From NCBI GenBank assembly GCA_030549335.1, contig CM060188.1, forward strand, positions 45,845,696 through 45,909,695: a stretch of DNA of 64,000 nt. Reading direction: 5' to 3'. This stretch comes from Pontederia crassipes. Its lineage: Eukaryota > Streptophyta > Magnoliopsida > Commelinales > Pontederiaceae. The position numbers and the translations under genes are program-made. Position 1 is the first letter of the stretch; the number at the start of each line of letters is the position of its first letter. The notes under the pieces are model-generated. The model searched no databases, was not told the DNA's origin, and was given only the letters and a program-made list of their open reading frames with translations. This document shows, in pieces, positions 2,143 through 34,568 of this stretch.

Positions 2143-3178
2143 GAAATTTTTTTACAAAATTCCCTTTAACTTTAACGTTTTCTCAGCATCATCCTCTAAC
2201 TTTACTTTTGTAATAAGATTGTCCTCCAACTTTTAGCTCTTTTCACGGAATACCATTTTCACCGTTGATCGCCCGTTCCTCGGTTGCCCACATGGCGACG
2301 TTCTCTCTTTGCCAGCAAGCAAATGCCTGAAGGGGCAACACCATGTAGACTACCCTCCACGTCAACAAACTATCCAAAAATAAAATAAATATAAAATAAT
2401 AAGAATAAAATAATAAAAAAAATAAATGCCATCTCCTCTCTCTCCGATCACCGACATCCTTGCCGGCAAGGGGTGGGATCGCCTGAGCGCCGCTGACTAG
2501 AAAGAGACGAGGAGGAGGCGGCTACCCCCACCCCTCTCCTCTCCAGCGTCAGAGAAGAGAGAATGAAGGGAGCAGGGCCCCTCCCTGCGCGTGCATCCCC
2601 CTCTCCTCTCGGGGGGAGGGGGCAAAAAGGGAAGGGGGGTGTGATGCCCCCCTTCTCGCGTCATCGCGAAAGAGGGGGGCGCGAAATGCCCCCCCCCCCC
2701 CCCCCCCCCCCCCCCTTCTCGCTTTCTCCTTGTGTGCCAGCGATGCACAAAGGCCGAGGTTAGGGGGGCGCGAAGGTGCCCCCCTCCCCCCTCGTGACCA
2801 GCGTGTGACACGAAGAGGGGCCCTAGAGAATGACATCAGAGCAGGTAGGGGGAGCGCGCATTACAAGGGTTACCCCTCTCTTCTCCAGCATCAAAGAAGA
2901 GAGAGGGAGGTTGGGTGCCCCTTGCGCCAACCAGCGGGAGAGGAGGGGCAACCCCTAATTTTTTAAAAACTTTATTATTATTTTAATATATATTAAACAC
3001 GTGGAGGAGAGGACGAGTGCAGCAGAGAGAAAATCGTCGTTTGAGCATCGACATATTAAAAGGGTATTGCAATTGAAAAAGGATAATCGGTGAAATAAGT
3101 AAAAAATGGAGAATAGTCTTATTACAAAATAAAATTTGAGGATGCCAAAATTAAAAGGTATTTGATGTAATTTAATCT
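2143..3178. mobile_element. Long-TIR, GC-cored Mutator-like element (family Y, copy 1)
   Basis: The two ends are imperfect inverted repeats of about 110 bp. Shared phrases include ttttgtaataaga and a ttatttcac-type block, read on opposite strands near 2200 and 3120. The flanks aaacacaca (2133-2141) and aaacaacca (3180-3188) agree at 7 of 9 positions, like an aged 9-bp target duplication. The core is extremely GC-rich and holds a 25-base C run (about 2690-2714). It also holds reiterated CTTCTCCAGC...AGAAGAGAG palindromic units, the same as in the copy at 49734-52373. Open frames in the core are low-complexity by-products. Mutator-like assignment rests on TSD size and long TIRs. Confidence 0.6.
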
Positions 3179-3591: not shown

Positions 3592-5919
3592 CTACTCAAC
3601 GAGCTCGCCAGGCTTCGTCTTCCTCTTCCACACCAGACCGCCGCCGCCAGATGTCCAACTGCGCCGGGATCTTCTCCCATCTGCCCGCTCCCTGATATTC
3701 CTCCTACCCCCGCCCGTCCTCTTCTGTGTCTCTGCGCCGGCGATCCCGTTGTCCAACCGCGTCTCCGCTGCTCGCCGCTCGACCTCTGCCCCGTCGGTGC
3801 CCGCGGCCTCTTTTTGACCCTCCTCCGGCGATGGGATGTCCTCGGGAACTTTCTTAATAGGTCCGACGGGTGTGCCCTGCGGCGGAACGCAGGTGATCCA
3901 AACTGATTTCATCCGCGGCGGCATAGTTTCCTTCGCTGCGTCCGGCTTAGTCTTATATGCGTCGTCTGTCTTCCCATCAGCGGCGACCACTTTGGCCGCT
4001 GGATGAATCCCATCTGCTTCCCTAGCCTTCTTCTCCGGCACGTGATTTGTGGATGGCTCCTTGGTGATGGCTCCGAGAAACTGGTGTTCTCTCGGCCGGT
4101 TCCTTCTAACTTCCTCGACCTCCTTCGCTGCTTCGGTCGGCCGTTGCTTCGCCGCATTCTCCTTATGGGCTTCCGTGAGGTGGCGCTCTTCCACGTCGCG
4201 CTTCTCCTTGAGGCGCAGCTCCTGGAGTTGCTTCAGAGTGATATAGTTCTGCCGCGGAACGCCGGCGGCCACTTCGACTGCCGAACGGCTCTGGTCATGA
4301 CTGCAGGATTTCTCAACCTCTGACTTCGAGGACGGCTGCTTGGGGACAGCTCGAAGCAGATGGTCATCCCTCGGCCGGTTCCTTCTAACTTCATCAACCT
4401 CCGCCGCCATAGGCGGTCGTTGCTTTGCTGCATTCTCATCATGGGCTTCCTGCAGCTTGCGCAGATGGCGCTCTTCACTGTCTTGCTTCTCTTTGAGGCG
4501 CAGTTCCTGGAGTTGCTTCAGCGTGACATAGTTGGACGGAACGCCGGCGGTCACTTCGGCGGCCGGATGGCTACGATCTTGACTGCCGGCCTTCTCCGCC
4601 TCGAGCTTTGCGGACGGCTGCTTGGTGAGTCCCTGGAGCAGATGGCCGTCATTTCTCCGCCGGTTCCTTCTAATTTTCTTGACCTTCGCCGCCCCCGGCG
4701 GCCGTTGCTTCGCCCCATTCTCCTCATGTGGTTCTTCAAGTTCGCGAAGGCGGTGCTGCTCCCCGTTTTGCTTCTCCTTTAGGCGTAGCTCATGGAGTTG
4801 CTTCAGCGTGACATAGTTGGGCGGAAATCCGGCGGCCACATCGACGGCCAGTTGGCTACGATCTTGACTGCCGGCCTTCTCCGCCTCGAGCTTTGCGGAC
4901 GGCTGCTTAGGGAGTCCCCGTTGCAGATGGCGATCATCTCTCGGCCAGTTCCTTTTAACTTCTTCCACTTTTGCCCCATTCTTCTCGTGGGGTACCTCGA
5001 GTTTGCCAAGGCGGCCGCGTTCCCCGTTTTGCTCCTCCTTCAGGCGTAGCTCCCGGAGTTGCTTCAGAGTCACATAATTCTTCGGAACGTCGGTGGCGGT
5101 CAAGCCCAAGGCCGGATAGCTTCGATCTTGACCGCAGTTCTTCTCCCCTTCGGACTTCTCGGATGGCTGCTTGGGGACCGGCCGGAACAGACGCGGACCC
5201 TTCCGTCGGCCCTTCCTGACTCCCTTGACCTCCGTCACCATGTGCAGCGATTGCTCCGCCGATTTCTCCTCATGGACTTCCTTGAGCTCGCGAAGCCGGC
5301 AGTCCTCATCGTCCTGCTTCTCCTTGAGGCGCAGCTCCTGGAGTTGCTTCAGCGTTAGATAGCTCTTCGGCGCGCCGTCAGCCACTTCGACGCCCGGATG
5401 GCTCAGAACTTGACCGCGGGCCTTCTCTGTCTCAGGCTTCGCGAACGGCTGCACAATAACTGGCCGGAGCAGATGTCGACCCCTCGGCCGATTCCTTCTA
5501 ACTTCGTCAACATCTGCTGCCCCGGGCGGCCGTTCCTCCGCCGTTTTCTGGTGGTGTGCCGCATTGACTTCGCGAAGCCGACGGTCTTCTTCGTCTTGCT
5601 TCTCCTTGCGGCGTAGCTCCTGGAGCTGCTTCAGCGTGACACAGCTCCTCGAAACGCCGGCGGCGACCACAACGGCCGGACGGCTCCGATGTTGGACCAC
5701 CCACGCCTCCTTCGCCTGGGGCTTTGCAGACGGCTGCTTGGGGACCGTCCGGGGAAGACGGCGTCCTCTCGGTCGGTTCCGTCTCACTTCCTTGACCTCC
5801 GCCGCTTGCAACGGCCGTTGCATCGCCGGTTTCCCCTCTTGCTCCTTCTCCTTGAGGCGTCGCTCTTGGAGTTGCTTCAGAGTGACGTAGTTGCGCGGGG
5901 GCAGCGGCGTCTTCTCCAT
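3592..5919 (-). CDS. Basic protein of seven tandem ~90-residue repeats, function unknown
   Basis: A 775-residue open frame with a true ATG at 5919-5917 and a TGA stop; no intron is needed. It contains seven tandem repeats. Each begins (Y/C)(V/L/I)TLKQLxELRLKEKQ, followed by an acidic/basic helix-like stretch (RLRELxExHxE), then VRRNRPR, then a PKQPSAKxExEK linker and an AAGVP spacer. The motif tyrosine (or cysteine) sits at residues 11, 93, 187, 282, 369, 464 and 559, so units are 82, 94, 95, 87, 95 and 95 residues long. All unit lengths are whole codons although units differ by many substitutions, which implies selection on the frame. A unique tail follows (residues ~660-775) with MPPRMKSVWITCVPPQG and an Arg/Gly-rich end. 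There is no signal peptide or membrane segment. Amphipathic coiled coil or nucleic-acid binding is only an inference from charge. An AT-rich, TATA-like stretch lies about 80 bp upstream (near 5995). I do not recognise a named family. Confidence 0.75.
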   Translation of the reverse strand: MEKTPLPPRNYVTLKQLQERRLKEKEQEGKPAMQRPLQAAEVKEVRRNRPRGRRLPRTVPKQPSAKPQAKEAWVVQHRSRPAVVVAAGVSRSCVTLKQLQELRRKEKQDEEDRRLREVNAAHHQKTAEERPPGAADVDEVRRNRPRGRHLLRPVIVQPFAKPETEKARGQVLSHPGVEVADGAPKSYLTLKQLQELRLKEKQDDEDCRLRELKEVHEEKSAEQSLHMVTEVKGVRKGRRKGPRLFRPVPKQPSEKSEGEKNCGQDRSYPALGLTATDVPKNYVTLKQLRELRLKEEQNGERGRLGKLEVPHEKNGAKVEEVKRNWPRDDRHLQRGLPKQPSAKLEAEKAGSQDRSQLAVDVAAGFPPNYVTLKQLHELRLKEKQNGEQHRLRELEEPHEENGAKQRPPGAAKVKKIRRNRRRNDGHLLQGLTKQPSAKLEAEKAGSQDRSHPAAEVTAGVPSNYVTLKQLQELRLKEKQDSEERHLRKLQEAHDENAAKQRPPMAAEVDEVRRNRPRDDHLLRAVPKQPSSKSEVEKSCSHDQSRSAVEVAAGVPRQNYITLKQLQELRLKEKRDVEERHLTEAHKENAAKQRPTEAAKEVEEVRRNRPREHQFLGAITKEPSTNHVPEKKAREADGIHPAAKVVAADGKTDDAYKTKPDAAKETMPPRMKSVWITCVPPQGTPVGPIKKVPEDIPSPEEGQKEAAGTDGAEVERRAAETRLDNGIAGAETQKRTGGGRRNIRERADGRRSRRSWTSGGGGLVWKRKTKPGELVE

Positions 5920-6263
5920 TTCAACGTGGCAAAATTAGGAGACGGCTGCAAGCAGGGAAGAAGGGGGAGTTAGGCTTTGCTTTGTTTGGGTAATTTATTA
6001 TTTATTAGTAAAATGGAAGAATGACGACGAATAAGGGATTAATGTTTTAATAAGAAATTATAAGTTTGACAATAAATTAAGGATATGAATATCGGATTTA
6101 GACGCAAATACATCTAAAATTATTAACAAGAAAAATGCATTTAGTGATTTATACAACTATTTATCTCAATAATTGTATTGATTTCATTGTCAAAGTAAAA
6201 AAAAAAAGATGCTTCCACTAAAATGATCCTAAAGATATATGACATCACCCAAAGGCCACATAC

Positions 6264-8945: not shown

Positions 8946-10948
8946 ATTCAATTAGGGTCGGGTGGTACGCGACGATGTCATGATGATCATCCAAGAGTTT
9001 GTTGACGGGAACTAGGGCTTTGAGCGCCTCAACTAGGGCCGAGCGAGTGGAGGATTCCAGGCCATATCCAGTGCCATCTACCTCTCGGTGGTTCGGACAT
9101 TGACGAATCGACTCCGAGAGGTGCTTCCTGACCTCATTCATCCAGCACAATCAGCCTCCATCCATGGTCGAGCCATCTCAGACAGCTACATGATTGACTC
9201 GGAGATCATTGCACGGTGGAGGGCTGACAGCCAGGCCTTCCTTTGGAAGATCGATTTCTCCAAGGATATGGTATGCCCTTATGGTCTTTTCTTTGACACT
9301 CCTTGCAGGTTAGAGGTTTTCTCAAGACATAGATCGCTTGGATGAAGCGGTGCATCACCACTACTCATCCCCATGCTTTTTGTGCTTGTTGTTGACACCC
9401 TGGCCAGATGTGCCCAAGCATCTTGTGAGGCAGGACTGTTCAGTGGATTTGGAGGGGTCTGGTCCCACTATTGGAGGCTTGGAGTATGCACATGATACGA
9501 TTTTCTTCGTTGAGGATTTGGTACAGCAGGCTAGACAGGTGGCAATATTGGTGGAGATTTTTGGTGAGGTTTCCGGTCTCCAGATCCACCACGCCAAATC
9601 CTCTTTCGTTCCTTTCGGCACGATCACTCAGGAGGCTGCCCAGTGTGCTACCGATCTGTGTACCCAGATCAGTTCCTTGTCGATCACCTACCTAGGCCTT
9701 CCCCTCTCGGATTGTCATATTGGCTCTCGGGGGTGAACCCCACCAATTATCGCGCGGTGCTCGAGATTACTATCATGTGGATGCCTACACTTCTGTTGAG
9801 ACAATTGAATCCTTTGAGGAGCAGATTTTTTTGACAAGGATGTGACTCGGACAACCGTGGCATCCACCTTGTTGCATGGCACAGTGTACGCCAGCCCACT
9901 TCACAAGGAGGGTTGGGGGTCCGAGACATTCGCTGCATCAATTAGGCTCTGTTGGTGCGGTGGGTGGGGCAAATTATGGGACCTGAGGACAGCTTATGGT
10001 GGTCGGTTTTCACTACATGTTATGAACGTGATTTGTCTTGGAACTCCGGAAGCATTCTCCCACGAGGGGCATCATCTTTCTAGCTGGGAATGTCAACTCT
10101 TATCCCATGGGTTCACCCTTTCATGATCCCCTCATTTGGATCCGGAGTGGACTTTTCTTTTTGGCAGCACGAGTGGCTGCTCCGGGACTTGTTATCGGCG
10201 TCCTACCCTCATCAAGTGACCCATGTATTGGCACATGGACTCCTCTTTTCAGCTCTCTGCTCTCAGTTCAGTGCTTCTCCGAGCTCTTGACACTTTTCCG
10301 AGAGTGGCTCCTTTTCATCCGTATCCCTCCCGACCGAACGGGTGGATATGGGTATTGTCGTCCTTCTCAGCTCGCAGTTTATATCTTTGATTCCTTCCTC
10401 TCACTTCTTCATCAGATAGCCTCAGAGCATACTGCATGGCATTCTCGGGTACCACAGAAAGTCAAGATCTTCGCTTAGCTCATGAAGCGCGACGGGATCC
10501 TCACTAGAGTTTACAAGACGAGGTGGGCCCTCCACACCGATACTTCCTGCCCTTTGTGTGTTGAGTTAGATGAGGTCATCGAACCGTATGTTCTTCGAGT
10601 GTGTGGTGGCCCGTGAGTTCTGGTCGCAGATGGATATTTTGGACACATTTCCAGCAATTGCGAAGACTTTGGTAGGCAAACAGAGATAGAGCTGGAGGGT
10701 TTTGTTAGCATCCTTTTTGGCCGGTACCTAGGCCATTTGGCTTTTGTGGGGAGCGATGTCAGGTGGAGAATATTGTTCATCGTGCATCTTTTCTTCTTCA
10801 GGAGTGGGGGGTTTTGAATAGCTAATGTACACTTTCTTTTTGTTGCTCTCTTCTTGAGAGCTCTACATTTTGACTATTTCATAGTTATATATATACATGG
10901 ATGGCAACCATAACTTTGGCGGCCATCCTTTTTCTCCTCAAAAAAAAA
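8946..10948 (+). mobile_element. 5'-truncated L1-type LINE (reverse transcriptase, zf-RVT, hairpin, poly-A)
   Basis: Scattered frames spell a plant L1-clade ORF2. RT block 1 near 9090-9260 reads LTNRLREVLPDLIHPAQSA, then WKIDFSK. The RT active-site block at 9485-9496 reads YAHD where intact elements have YADD. SITYLGLPLS follows at about 9690. A FWQHEWLLRD segment lies near 10160, PQKVKIFA near 10450, and a zinc-finger (zf-RVT) CPLCVELDE near 10550. The 3' UTR ends with a hairpin (10899-10928), CATCCTTTTTCTCCTC and an A-run (10940-10948). The first catalytic Asp is replaced and the frame is broken repeatedly, so this copy is dead. The 5' half (endonuclease, ORF1) is absent, as usual for target-primed insertion. 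Confidence 0.85.
10899..10928 (+). other. LINE 3' terminal hairpin (copy 1)
   Basis: GGATGGC at 10899-10905 pairs perfectly with GCCATCC at 10922-10928, 12 bp before the A-run. It is one of four related hairpins in which the stem sequence changes but pairing is kept. Confidence 0.75.
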
Positions 10949-11475
10949 GATTGAAGTAACAAACTGACATTGAGATATACAACTGGATGTTGTAACTAGG
11001 GACACAAATACATATACAGGTCTGATTTCTCATGATATATGAATCTTGATATAAAGATCATGGAAAGTTTGGACGAACTACGTTTATCACAAAGCCAACT
11101 CTTGTGCCTATTGGCTACTACAATACTCACTCAATCCTTCCTTGAACTTTCATGTCTTGGATTCTCCCTCATCAAGAATCTCTTTTTACTTGCAGATGTA
11201 TTTGAGTGTCATTTCCTCCACTTTGATTAGCTTAATAAATGCTTCATTTTGATTGGAACACAAGGCATAGGCATCAATCCTTTGGAAATGATGGCCAGAT
11301 ATGGTTGCCTAGAAAGTTTAGTTTCAAAAAGCTTATGAAATCATGTGAGGATCATGCCAGACTATGGAAAAGGAGATTCTAATAGCACACCACTTTGTAT
11401 TAGTTAGAAAGATAGTGGGTTGATTAAGATTTAAGAGCATAATGAGTAGTTACAACTTTTATGTCCATGTTCTGT
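10949..11475. other. Intergenic, nothing recognised
   Basis: AT-rich; no convincing gene, TIR or RNA seen. Confidence 0.4.
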
Positions 11476-12240
11476 TTTTTTATTTTTTTTTTTTGAGATC
11501 CATGTTATTCATTGTTAGTCGTGTCTTTTGAAACGACACTGTTAATTATGTTATATAGTTTCACTAACTAAGCTTTATGTTTTTTTAAGAAGAATTGGTC
11601 CTCTATCATTGAAAGATCCAGATAAATCCTGATACAAAATAATTAGAAGACTCAGAGGAGGGCTCTCCTGCTAAAAAGTGTCGACCAACAATTTTCTTAT
11701 AGGGTTCACTAAGTAATCTTCTGTCCTACTAGTCTTTCAAAATGAATGTTTAACTACAAAAAAGTTTAAGGACTCCAAAACAAGCCAACAATTGGAAATA
11801 ATGTTTTGCAATGATTTGTTTGTGATGTTCGCCAGATTCATCGAGTCACATTCAATCCAGACATATATAAGCCACACTGGAGAGCCCTGACTTCAGTGGC
11901 AAGAACAATCTAAAGTTGTTTTGAAATGGAACCTGCACAAAAGAAACCACCATTAGGAGATTGCAATATGCAGCCTACCCCCCTTCCTCACAGGGACGTG
12001 AAGAATCCATTGGTGTTGAGTTTAACCCAATAAGGAGGAAGGCGCTCCACCTCTCGAAATGTGGTCATGGGGATGAGGTCCCTTAGAACAGTGGAGTCTG
12101 ATGTATTCCGCAACATGTGCCTGCACCCTCGCCCACATGGAAGATGGTAGAATGGCTGTTGTGAAAGTGGATATCATTCCCAAGTGTATATATTCCCGAA
12201 AATCGAAAAGCCATCTGAGATAAGATGATGTTACTGGCGT
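11476..12240 (-). mobile_element. LINE 3' piece with RNase H domain (copy D)
   Basis: On the minus strand near 12038-11840 a frame reads PPYWVKLNTNGF, then GCILQSPNGGFF, then LATEVRALQCGLYMSGL. This is the pattern of the plant-type RNase H (RVT_3) domain found at the C-terminus of some plant non-LTR elements. In-frame stops show it is dead. An A-rich tail (T-run 11484-11497 on the plus strand) lies downstream in the element's own direction, followed by a degenerate gagatccatg that resembles the terminal motif of the other copies. Confidence 0.6.
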
Positions 12241-12249
12241 GGGATTTTA

Positions 12250-12671
12250 TAATTGAAAAAGGATGTCTACCAGATTGTAGACATCCTACGTTATTATATT
12301 AAATTAAAAATATCTAGTACATCATCATAGTATTTACAAAATAAAGGAACAAATCACATTAATTGCCTGCCCAAAATTTGGCCAATGTCTTTGCATGTGA
12401 GGTGATGCTCTCCAATGCAAGCAAATTGTGCCTGAAGACACGCATTTCTCTCTATCCAGATAACCTAAAGGATTGCCAAGGGCAATAGTCTCTGGTGCGT
12501 CGAGACATATCTCCACACATGAGCAAAGGATAAATCCAGCAATCCACACCCCACTGGCTTCCACACCTCCGACGTCACCCAGCAAATAAAGAAGATATGA
12601 TTGACATCCTCAGCCATATCACCACAGAAGGAGCATAAAAAATCAGCTGAGTCTATCCATTTTTTTTTTAT
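12250..12671 (-). mobile_element. 5'-truncated LINE (copy A)
   Basis: The minus-strand frame at about 12650-12340 reads ADFLCSFCGDMAEDVNHIFF then CWVTSEVWKPVG. This is the zf-RVT zinc-finger region at the end of plant LINE ORF2. Downstream is a 3' UTR and a terminal hairpin with a 10-bp perfect stem (12261-12286). The element begins abruptly at ~12671, where the tail of the next LINE starts. Confidence 0.7.
12261..12286 (-). other. LINE 3' terminal hairpin (copy A)
   Basis: GGATGTCTAC (12261-12270) pairs with GTAGACATCC (12277-12286): a 10-bp perfect stem with a 6-nt loop. Confidence 0.75.
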
Positions 12672-12993
12672 CTTTGTCCTCATTTTTTTTCTTTTTTGAG
12701 AGGATAAAGGATGAATTCCTTTTGCATTCATCCAATTTCATTTAAAAAAAGGTCACATTATACATAAACAATTTACAAGGATAGAAAAAGATTAAATATT
12801 TGTCCAATTCTTCATCAACTTATCCGTTGTAGATAAGATATTTTCAGTGTAACATCTTTCCCCTCTAAATAAGCAGCCATTTCTTTGTGTCCCTATAGAC
12901 CACAGTATAGCAAAAGGTTCATTTCGTCATCGCCGGGGTACATATGTTTGAATGGTGAAATTTGGTCCGCCATGCCAAAACGATCTCCAAAAG
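12672..12993 (-). mobile_element. 5'-truncated LINE (copy B)
   Basis: The minus strand near 12920-12800 reads FAILWSIGTQRNGCLFRGE then TTDKLMKNWTNI, typical of the C-terminal end of plant L1 ORF2. The 3' end at 12672-12733 has an A-rich tail, the CATCCTTTATCCTCTC motif and a hairpin. It abuts copy A on one side and copy C on the other, all in the same orientation. Confidence 0.65.
12709..12733 (-). other. LINE 3' terminal hairpin (copy B)
   Basis: GGATGAAT (12709-12716) pairs perfectly with ATTCATCC (12726-12733). Confidence 0.75.
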
Positions 12994-13560
12994 TTTTTTT
13001 TTTTTGAGGAGAAAAAGGATGACTACCAGATTGTGTGGTTGTCATCCAAGTATATATATAACTGAAAAAGGAGAGTCATGTACAAGTGTGTGCTCTCAGG
13101 GAGAGAGCTTCACGATCTCCAGAAGTTGTTCGTAAAAGACATTTCATGTTAATCGGTATGATTTGGTTAGTAGCCTTTCACGCCAAAGGAGCCAGCCAAA
13201 AATCTTAATCCATACAACTTCCATATAATCCTACAATCAGTCATAAAATCAGTCGGCTGAAAACCCATAGCTCTCATGGGAGCTGTATAAACTTTCCGCA
13301 CAGAAAATTGACCAGAATTTCAAGTCCAAGAATCTGAATTATAAGTATCAAGTACACAGCCTTCAAGAAGCCCCATAAAACATTGAGAAATTCTTGAGCT
13401 CATTGGGCAGATAACTTAACGGAAAAGGAAGTGAGCAACATGCCATTACCTACATCCGAGGTCAACCAATACTCAAAAAACGGTTGTCTCCTTGTCCACA
13501 GCGATAGCATATAGGCGTGGAAAGAAGGAGCGTAACGGAATATCAAAAGCCTAAGGATCT
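12994..13560 (-). mobile_element. 5'-truncated LINE (copy C)
   Basis: A 12-base T-run (12994-13005, the A-tail on the minus strand) is followed by the CATCCTTTTTCTCCTC motif, a hairpin and an agttatatatatac stretch almost identical to the plus-strand LINE at 10880-10896. Further upstream in the element, frames read DSWTWKFWSIF and IKIFGWLLWRERLLTKS, the block just before the zf-RVT finger. The two blocks are brought together by internal loss, so it is broken. Confidence 0.7.
13017..13047 (-). other. LINE 3' terminal hairpin (copy C)
   Basis: GGATGAC (13017-13023) pairs perfectly with GTCATCC (13041-13047). After one mismatch the stem continues with TACC against GGTT-type pairing. Confidence 0.75.
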
Positions 13561-14066
13561 GTTCGACGAATGATAAAGAGAAAAGGGTTATTAGTCCAAT
13601 TAATAGAAACTTGAACTAGAAAAGAAGAATACAGTGTAAGAATTGGGAACTTTGAATTCTTGTTCTAGAACCTACCTGATATGAAATAAGTACTAATAAG
13701 ATTTGATATATATGTGTTTAGGTTACCTGGATATTTGATTAGACACTTGGATGACTGGCTAAGGACTAGCATATTCAAGGTGAATAGATTTTCAAAATTA
13801 CATGCCCACAGTGATGGTGGACTTTATTTTATCCCATAGGTCTTTTGATTAACTATGCAAATGAATGATAAGAATATATGATTGCTTTTGAGCTAATATG
13901 ACGATATATGTTGATAAAATTTTCTAAAGCTTTGTGGAATTATGTATGACCTTACCTTGAACTTATTGGTGGCAATTTATGTGATTTATCTTGGGTTTTC
14001 TGAAAGATTTAATTTTATCATGCCATAAATGTTATCAGAATTACTATTTCGATAAGTTTCAACTAT
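13561..14066. other. Intergenic, nothing recognised
   Basis: AT-rich, no gene or element supported. Confidence 0.4.
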
Positions 14067-33960: not shown

Positions 33961-34120
33961 TTTAGCAAGCATGTAATTAATTTATACTTTGATGATGCAA
34001 ATAAGTATTAGGTTATTAATTAGTTAGTCATTCAAATAATGATTAAGTACCATAATAAATATAAACTAGTAATAATGAAATGAATAAATACTTTTCGTGA
34101 CAAAGAAATTATTGGTACAA

Positions 34121-34386
<266 letters not shown>

Positions 34387-34568
34387 ACATTTTTTTTGTT
34401 GTATCAATCCAAACACACATATCCTCGTTCCATATGTTTATTAATTTTATTCTCCAGTCAACCAATTAATTCGTAGTTAAACGTAAATGTTGTTGTAGAG
34501 ACATAATATAATCATAACCCATCAAAGTTCTAGTCATAATCACATAACTGCACTTAGCAGCATACGTA

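Follow-up and report, generated by a model that had tools for sequence, protein, structure and literature searches.

A 64,000-nucleotide (nt) stretch of the Pontederia crassipes genome (contig CM060188.1, positions 45,845,696 to 45,909,695), termed here the window and the source of all coordinates below unless stated otherwise, carries four short hairpins in which, judging by sequence, decayed long interspersed nuclear elements (LINEs) end. The locus raises the question of whether these hairpins represent an RNA structure kept by selection and, if so, what reads it. The data presented below make it probable that the hairpin is the 3'-terminal template signal, or recognition hairpin, of 'stringent' L1-like plant LINEs.

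An earlier note on this DNA had placed four hairpins here, and all four are found where it placed them, with the stems it described. Hairpin A (10899..10928, plus strand) has the arms GGATGGC/GCCATCC and an inner CCA/TGG helix; its tail (10929..10948, plus strand) is TTTTTCTCCTC followed by A9. Hairpin B (12261..12286, minus strand) has the arms GGATGTC/GACATCC in a 10-base-pair stem with the loop AATCTG, and its tail, TTTTTCAATTATAAAA, lacks both CTCCTC and a clean A-tail. Hairpin C (12709..12733, minus strand) has the arms GGATGAA/TTCATCC and the tail TTTATCCTCTC followed by A6 (12692..12708, minus strand). Hairpin D (13017..13047, minus strand) has the arms GGATGAC/GTCATCC, an inner ACCA/TGGT helix, and again TTTTTCTCCTC, followed by A12 (12994..13016, minus strand). 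RNA folding z-scores are -5.5 for A, -5.0 for B and -4.3 for D; that of C taken alone is unremarkable (-1.7). The outer stem GGATG/CATCC followed by TTT is common to all four. CATCC, which had been counted as flanking sequence, belongs to the stem as its 3' arm, and the flank and A-tail said to be shared by the four are shared by A and D but not by C or B.

Hairpins of the form GGATGNN/NNCATCC, with 4-20 nt between the 7-nt arms, number four loci in the window, or eight as counted on both strands. In 200 dinucleotide shuffles the both-strand count had a mean of 0.12 and a maximum of 2, and therefore about 0.06 loci are expected by chance. A covariance model built on A-D and scanned over the window gave no clear fifth copy, the next four matches being the hairpins' own reverse strands, followed by one at E 0.088. 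An Rfam scan of positions 10000-14000 gave a chance-level match only (E 0.54). Covariation in the four hairpins by themselves is only suggestive: the covariation score was equalled by 11 of 500 shuffles, and the number of pairs changed on both sides by 110 of 500. The case accordingly rests on genome-wide data.

The genome searched comprises 1.13 gigabases in 43 contigs. The 20-base tail with CATCC, CATCCTTTTTCTCCTCAAAA, is found at 623 exact places (reversed control, 0), and the tail without the stem letters at 518 (reversed control, 1). Among the first 100 listed places of this stem-free tail, CATCC precedes the T-run in 78 and is absent in 22; when read by eye, 16 of these 22 have a recognizable hairpin whose 3' arm is altered or displaced, and no hairpin is seen in the other 6. 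The module GGATGN{13,19}CATCCTTTT, which spans hairpins of 23 to 29 nt, occurs at 3,165 places (reversed control, 49). Of the window hairpins only B fits this module, since A is 30 nt and D is 31 nt in length and C has CATCCTTTA (TTTA). The module thus misses longer or variant hairpins, so that not all copies are included in the 3,165. The consensus GGATGAC...GTCATCC is present in 37 of 100 listed module places. Stem-free and CATCC-anchored searches together yielded 116 distinct sites, in 101 of which a 5' arm like GGATGAC could be located from sequence alone. This arm pairs with the 3' arm in 85 to 96 of the 101 sites at each of seven positions; the other 15 sites were dropped from the count because the 5' arm was unrecognizable. 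At 40 further loci the tails vary from family to family and consist of TTTT(T), mostly about 6-8 often pyrimidine-rich bases and usually then an A-run. A viral-contig scan with the tail returned one locus (L001), without a hairpin of this kind, and this was taken as chance.

The inner stem displays compensatory changes. A 5' base other than A at pair 6 is found at 607 places (control, 2). Among the first 100 of these, 5' G faces T 51, C 29, A 2 and G 1 times, 5' T faces A 7, T 4 and C 1 times, and 5' C faces G 2, T 2 and C 1 times, or 89 paired and 11 unpaired. A 3' base other than T occurs at 388 places (control, 4). In the first 100 of these, 3' A faces T 13, A 6 and G 3 times, 3' C faces G 37, A 29, C 3 and T 1 times, and 3' G faces A 5, C 2 and G 1 times. 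At pair 7, a 5' base other than C is found at 719 places (control, 4); among the first 100, 5' T faces A in 62 or G in 17 of 83, and none of the 17 places with 5' G or A is paired. A permutation test was made with 85 distinct strings from the first 100 module places, in which the interior of GGATG/CATCC was left free. Pairing exceeds the permuted value at pair 6 (78 vs 65.5, p <0.0002), pair 7 (62 vs 51.9, p 0.0002), pair 9 (62 vs 56.9, p 0.015) and pair 10 (63 vs 38.9, p <0.0002).

The outer stem behaves differently. Its variants were searched for with A-T fixed at pair 6 and C-G at pair 7. For pair 3, an altered 5' base was found in 50 places (control, 0), which consist of G-T 22, T-T 19, C-T 5, T-A 2 and C-C 2. 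At pair 5 there are 103 places (control, 2), and the 100 listed consist of A-C 47, T-C 37, C-C 11, T-A 2, A-T 1, T-G 1 and A-A 1. In one small clade pair 3 is compensated, its members having G-T or G-C there (L021/L022, L068, L070). Because most changes at pairs 3 and 5 lack compensation, the outer stem is read as fixed sequence; from searches anchored on the outer letters, it looks constrained as sequence and the inner stem as shape. The hairpins have a little-varying, rarely compensated outer stem, a covarying inner stem and a variable loop. The string GGATTACTACCCATGCTTAGAAGTCATCC, with a T-C mismatch at pair 5, is present in 21 identical copies among the 100 listed. A GGGTG/CACCC module, in which pair 3 is G-C, gave 472 places against 30 in the control and was set aside, as by eye only 3 of 100 listed look like members of this family. 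Most of these 100 places are an unrelated palindromic repeat (GGGTGGTCGGGTTACCC...), like GGGTGGTCGGGTTACCCGACCACCC then TTTT.

The hairpins had been proposed to be LINE 3' ends, and this is borne out. Same-strand upstream tblastn matches to the window's LINE fragments were found at 22 of 58 long sites. At one of these (L030) the match is the hairpin itself only, which leaves 21 of 58 sites with related LINE coding upstream. The zf-type matches lie mostly about 300 to 500 nt ahead of the tail. Ten translated pieces, chosen out of 20 loci and mostly from loci with LINE matches, gave zf-RVT above the cut-off in four (E 4e-13 to 8e-21) and below it in one, RVT_1 in one (E 1e-24) and nothing in four. 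The label 'L1-like' is based on zf-RVT together with poly(A), a link that we presume to hold.

Target-site duplications at a score of at least 12 bound 13 of 116 sites and 0 of 578 mismatched controls, in a search that reached 140 nt upstream only. At a score of at least 10, 16 sites are listed, with inserts that have 5 to 92 nt ahead of the U-run (controls, 2 of 578). The insert of L036 (score 11, reached by 1 of 578 controls) consists of CATCCTTTTTCTCCTC and ten A residues. In L036, L042, L128, L047 and L126 the very short duplication-bounded inserts have 5 to 22 nt ahead of the U-run and consist of a partial hairpin, the tail and poly(A). These copies thus display a poly(A) end, 5' truncation and target-site duplications, as in target-primed insertion of LINEs. 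The hairpin stands just before poly(A), LINE coding is found upstream of it, and there are duplication-bounded insertions that keep only the hairpin end. That even heavily truncated copies keep this end is expected from target-primed reverse transcription for any LINE 3' end.

In an alignment of 23 LINEs, the two 20-nt hairpin blocks show 78 and 83% identity, and the 160 nt lying furthest upstream show 40-58%; sites were selected by the tail, which biases the comparison toward the 3' end, and 6 of 46 sequences were left out of the alignment. The earlier note had also raised the possibility of short interspersed nuclear elements (SINEs) with the same tail. None was found in the 58 long sites or in 20 further loci, a small sample of more than 3,000. 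Among the 58, 44 fall in one cluster that includes the LINE-coding sites, two are a near-identical pair, and there is no separate SINE-like cluster. A B-box-like motif is absent within about 300 nt upstream at the 20 loci.

How might such a signal work? The transcript would end with GGAUG, inner stem, loop, inner stem, CAUCC, U4/5, a pyrimidine-rich stretch and poly(A), in that order. The LINE protein may grip the outer stem and U-run by their letters and the inner stem by its shape; we infer that it is the reverse transcriptase that recognizes the hairpin. Gripped in this way, the hairpin would bring the poly(A) end to the nicked target, ready for target-primed reverse transcription. A family whose hairpin no longer pairs would cease to amplify, and surviving lineages would then show compensated or wobble pairs. 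A broader and more tentative suggestion, which we consider somewhat doubtful, is a two-part tail code across many divergent LINE families, with GGAUG/CAUCC-U4 fixed as sequence and the upper stem fixed in shape alone. A single class of protein could in that case read all of them, families could cross-mobilize, and RNA ends of a few dozen bases could insert.

Several observations weigh against the interpretation as a recognition hairpin. At pair 6, 3' C faces an unpaired 5' A in 29 of 70 cases (first 100 of 388). Pairs 8, 11 and 12 show no pairing excess over permutation in the 85 strings, and pair 8 was rejected as a covarying pair for this reason. Two of 13 shifted registers also fall below p 0.05 (10-11, p 0.042; 11-12, p 0.014). 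Pair 7 is not significant after the strings are collapsed to 42 families (p 0.22). Of the compensating changes proposed at positions 6 and 7, which do recur genome-wide in register, those at pair 6 survive the collapse but those at pair 7 lose significance. In the outer stem, 2 of 50 changes at pair 3 are fully compensated and 22 of 50 are G-U, and 4 of 100 listed changes at pair 5 pair. It had been held that uncompensated arm changes would speak against a selected structure; they are found at outer pairs 3 and 5, where by that criterion they would count against a purely structural signal, whereas the inner pairs compensate. The 200 nt between the upstream block and the hairpin show 55-78% identity, and the hairpin is only slightly more conserved than this stretch. 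There are also matters of sampling: 100 of the 3,165 module places were read as the matched string, each listing takes the first 100 places in genome order and is not a random draw, copy counts are inflated by duplicated chromosome blocks, and the searches required GGATG and CATCC, so that other outer stems would escape.

Shared descent, in which a few ancestral hairpins copied many times mimic covariation, is the least probable of the alternatives. There are few clades per pair type in the CTCCTC family. When a tree is built from the LINE sequence that flanks the hairpin, the pair-6 G-C carriers fall in one clade and the carriers of G-C and G-U at pair 3 in another, a result that we count in favour of the recognition hairpin (L025 and L015 were left out of this tree, and one row, L028_27, shows the wrong site). 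At the coarsest collapse, to 9 clusters, pair 6 is the only one with a p value below 0.05 (0.044). Pair 6 nevertheless holds at 42, 33 and 17 edit-distance clusters (p 0.0006 or less), and the 42 clusters give p <0.0002 for pair 6, 0.0016 for pair 10 and 0.027 for pair 9; pairs 6 and 10 are also significant at 33 families. In addition, five of the standard pair types are represented at pair 6 in the 85 strings, and pair 10 has several. This diversity, many different stems and not one, also argues against a DNA palindrome whose arms are kept alike through gene conversion or template switching in the absence of RNA selection, an origin that the earlier note had allowed for and that we regard as very improbable. 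The arms are short and symmetric, and the 7-nt arms of the four hairpins are identical in a duplicated copy of the locus (L180, described below), as a palindrome would have it. DNA symmetry does not, however, predict that G-U exceeds A-C by 13 to 1, as it does at pair 6. Ratios at pairs 7, 9 and 10 are 3:4, 3:7 and 8:8, with no asymmetry, and this argument therefore rests on pair 6.

A less remote alternative, but still an unlikely one, is that selection keeps the RNA structure for some other task (forming the 3' end of the transcript, exporting it or stabilizing it, for example) and that the reverse transcriptase reads poly(A) only. A position just before poly(A) suits any 3'-end role, the tie of hairpin to protein is a proposed one, and poly(A)-only recognition has been proposed for other plant L1 lineages (PMC3747384). 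On the other hand, the outer stem and U-run are common to families with differing spacers and loops, as expected for a protein-read signal, although the searches required both, and ORF2 protein binds such a stem-loop in zebrafish LINEs of the stringent type (PMC4176376). The recognition hairpin remains the probable reading.

The closest known parallel is from monocots. Ohshima (2013, PMC3747384) describes, in one monocot L1 lineage and the SINEs that go with it, a 3' hairpin whose stem changes are compensatory, with CGAG following the stem and UCU within the loop. Monocot 1a (ME1) LINEs and ZmSINE2/ZmSINE3 of maize and sorghum resemble the present elements in being of plant L1 type with a 3'-terminal hairpin, compensatory stem changes and a 3' end more conserved than the body. 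Of these traits of Ohshima-type stringent LINEs, the compensatory changes are found here at inner pairs only and the greater conservation of the 3' end is found as well. There the conserved letters are the CGAG that follows the stem and the UCU of the loop, and the stem itself varies in sequence; here they are those of the GGATG/CATCC outer stem and the U-run, the loop varies, and a small sample yielded no SINE. CGAG is absent after the stem in the four window copies, which have TTTTTC or TTTATC instead; the statement covers these copies only, as the genome searches required TTTT. TCT lies between the 7-nt arms in 22 of 85 strings (mean 15.6 and maximum 25 in 300 shuffles) and is not clearly enriched; among the window hairpins B and D have it, and A and C do not. 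Accordingly, the best reading is that the tail is of the same kind as Ohshima's maize and sorghum tails, with other conserved letters.

Zebrafish ZfL2-1 and ZfL2-2 likewise have a LINE 3' stem-loop, which the ORF2 protein binds, the stem being read generally by the LINE's own protein (PMC4176376). These elements belong to the L2 clade and were experimentally tested, and their loop is read specifically; here the loop is variable and the system is known from sequence alone. Human L1 and Alu also show a stem-loop near the 3' end of L1-clade elements (PMC5135761), but they are mammalian, mammalian L1 is taken to read poly(A) (PMC3747384), and the likeness is one of description. No description of a GGATG/CATCC tail was found in the literature by title or opening abstract; the letters themselves were not searched and subscription journals were mostly uncovered, and such a tail may already have been published elsewhere. 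With its covarying inner pairs and nearly invariant outer stem, this large natural collection from another genome offers a ready test system and indicates which pairs to test.

LINE remnants lie around the window hairpins. Upstream of A on the plus strand are a putative reverse-transcriptase remnant (9314..9733; RVT_1 E 0.025, below the cut-off), with related coding upstream of other tail copies, and a zf-RVT-like remnant (10479..10613), so assigned because further copies of the tail are preceded by tblastn matches to it (E down to 1e-10), and outside the Pfam scan. LINE B has a frame with a zf-RVT remnant (12468..12737, minus strand; PF13966 E 6.7e-6, 27.1 bits against a cut-off of 27.5); a protein database search with this frame gave one candidate, and none was scored. 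A coding remnant upstream of D (13170..13319, minus strand) has no Pfam match but gives tblastn matches upstream of other tail copies (E 8e-4 to 5e-5). C was probably inserted at the upstream end of LINE B, and from their order the copies appear to form a nested cluster, C lying inside the LINE of B and D against that of C. Hairpins A-D gave no convincing target-site duplication.

The duplicated copy L180 (C5:27138300-27140750), on a different chromosome, aligns with window positions 10786-13172 at 92% identity by BLAST with gaps and 96% over 2,252 gap-free columns. All four hairpins are retained in the same order with identical 7-nt arms, and thus the four insertions predate that duplication. 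Differences within hairpins fall between the arms of A and D. As there are few changes between the two copies, the intact arms are no evidence of present selection. Many other listed strings recur on a neighbouring-numbered contig, which suggests an old genome duplication.

Elsewhere in the window, positions 3592-5934 on the minus strand contain a frame of 780 codons from stop to stop in which a motif like NYVTLKQLQELRLKEKQ is repeated, and positions 34066-34476 consist of a long AAT/ATT-type triplet run, with poly-Asn or poly-Ile in its reading frames.

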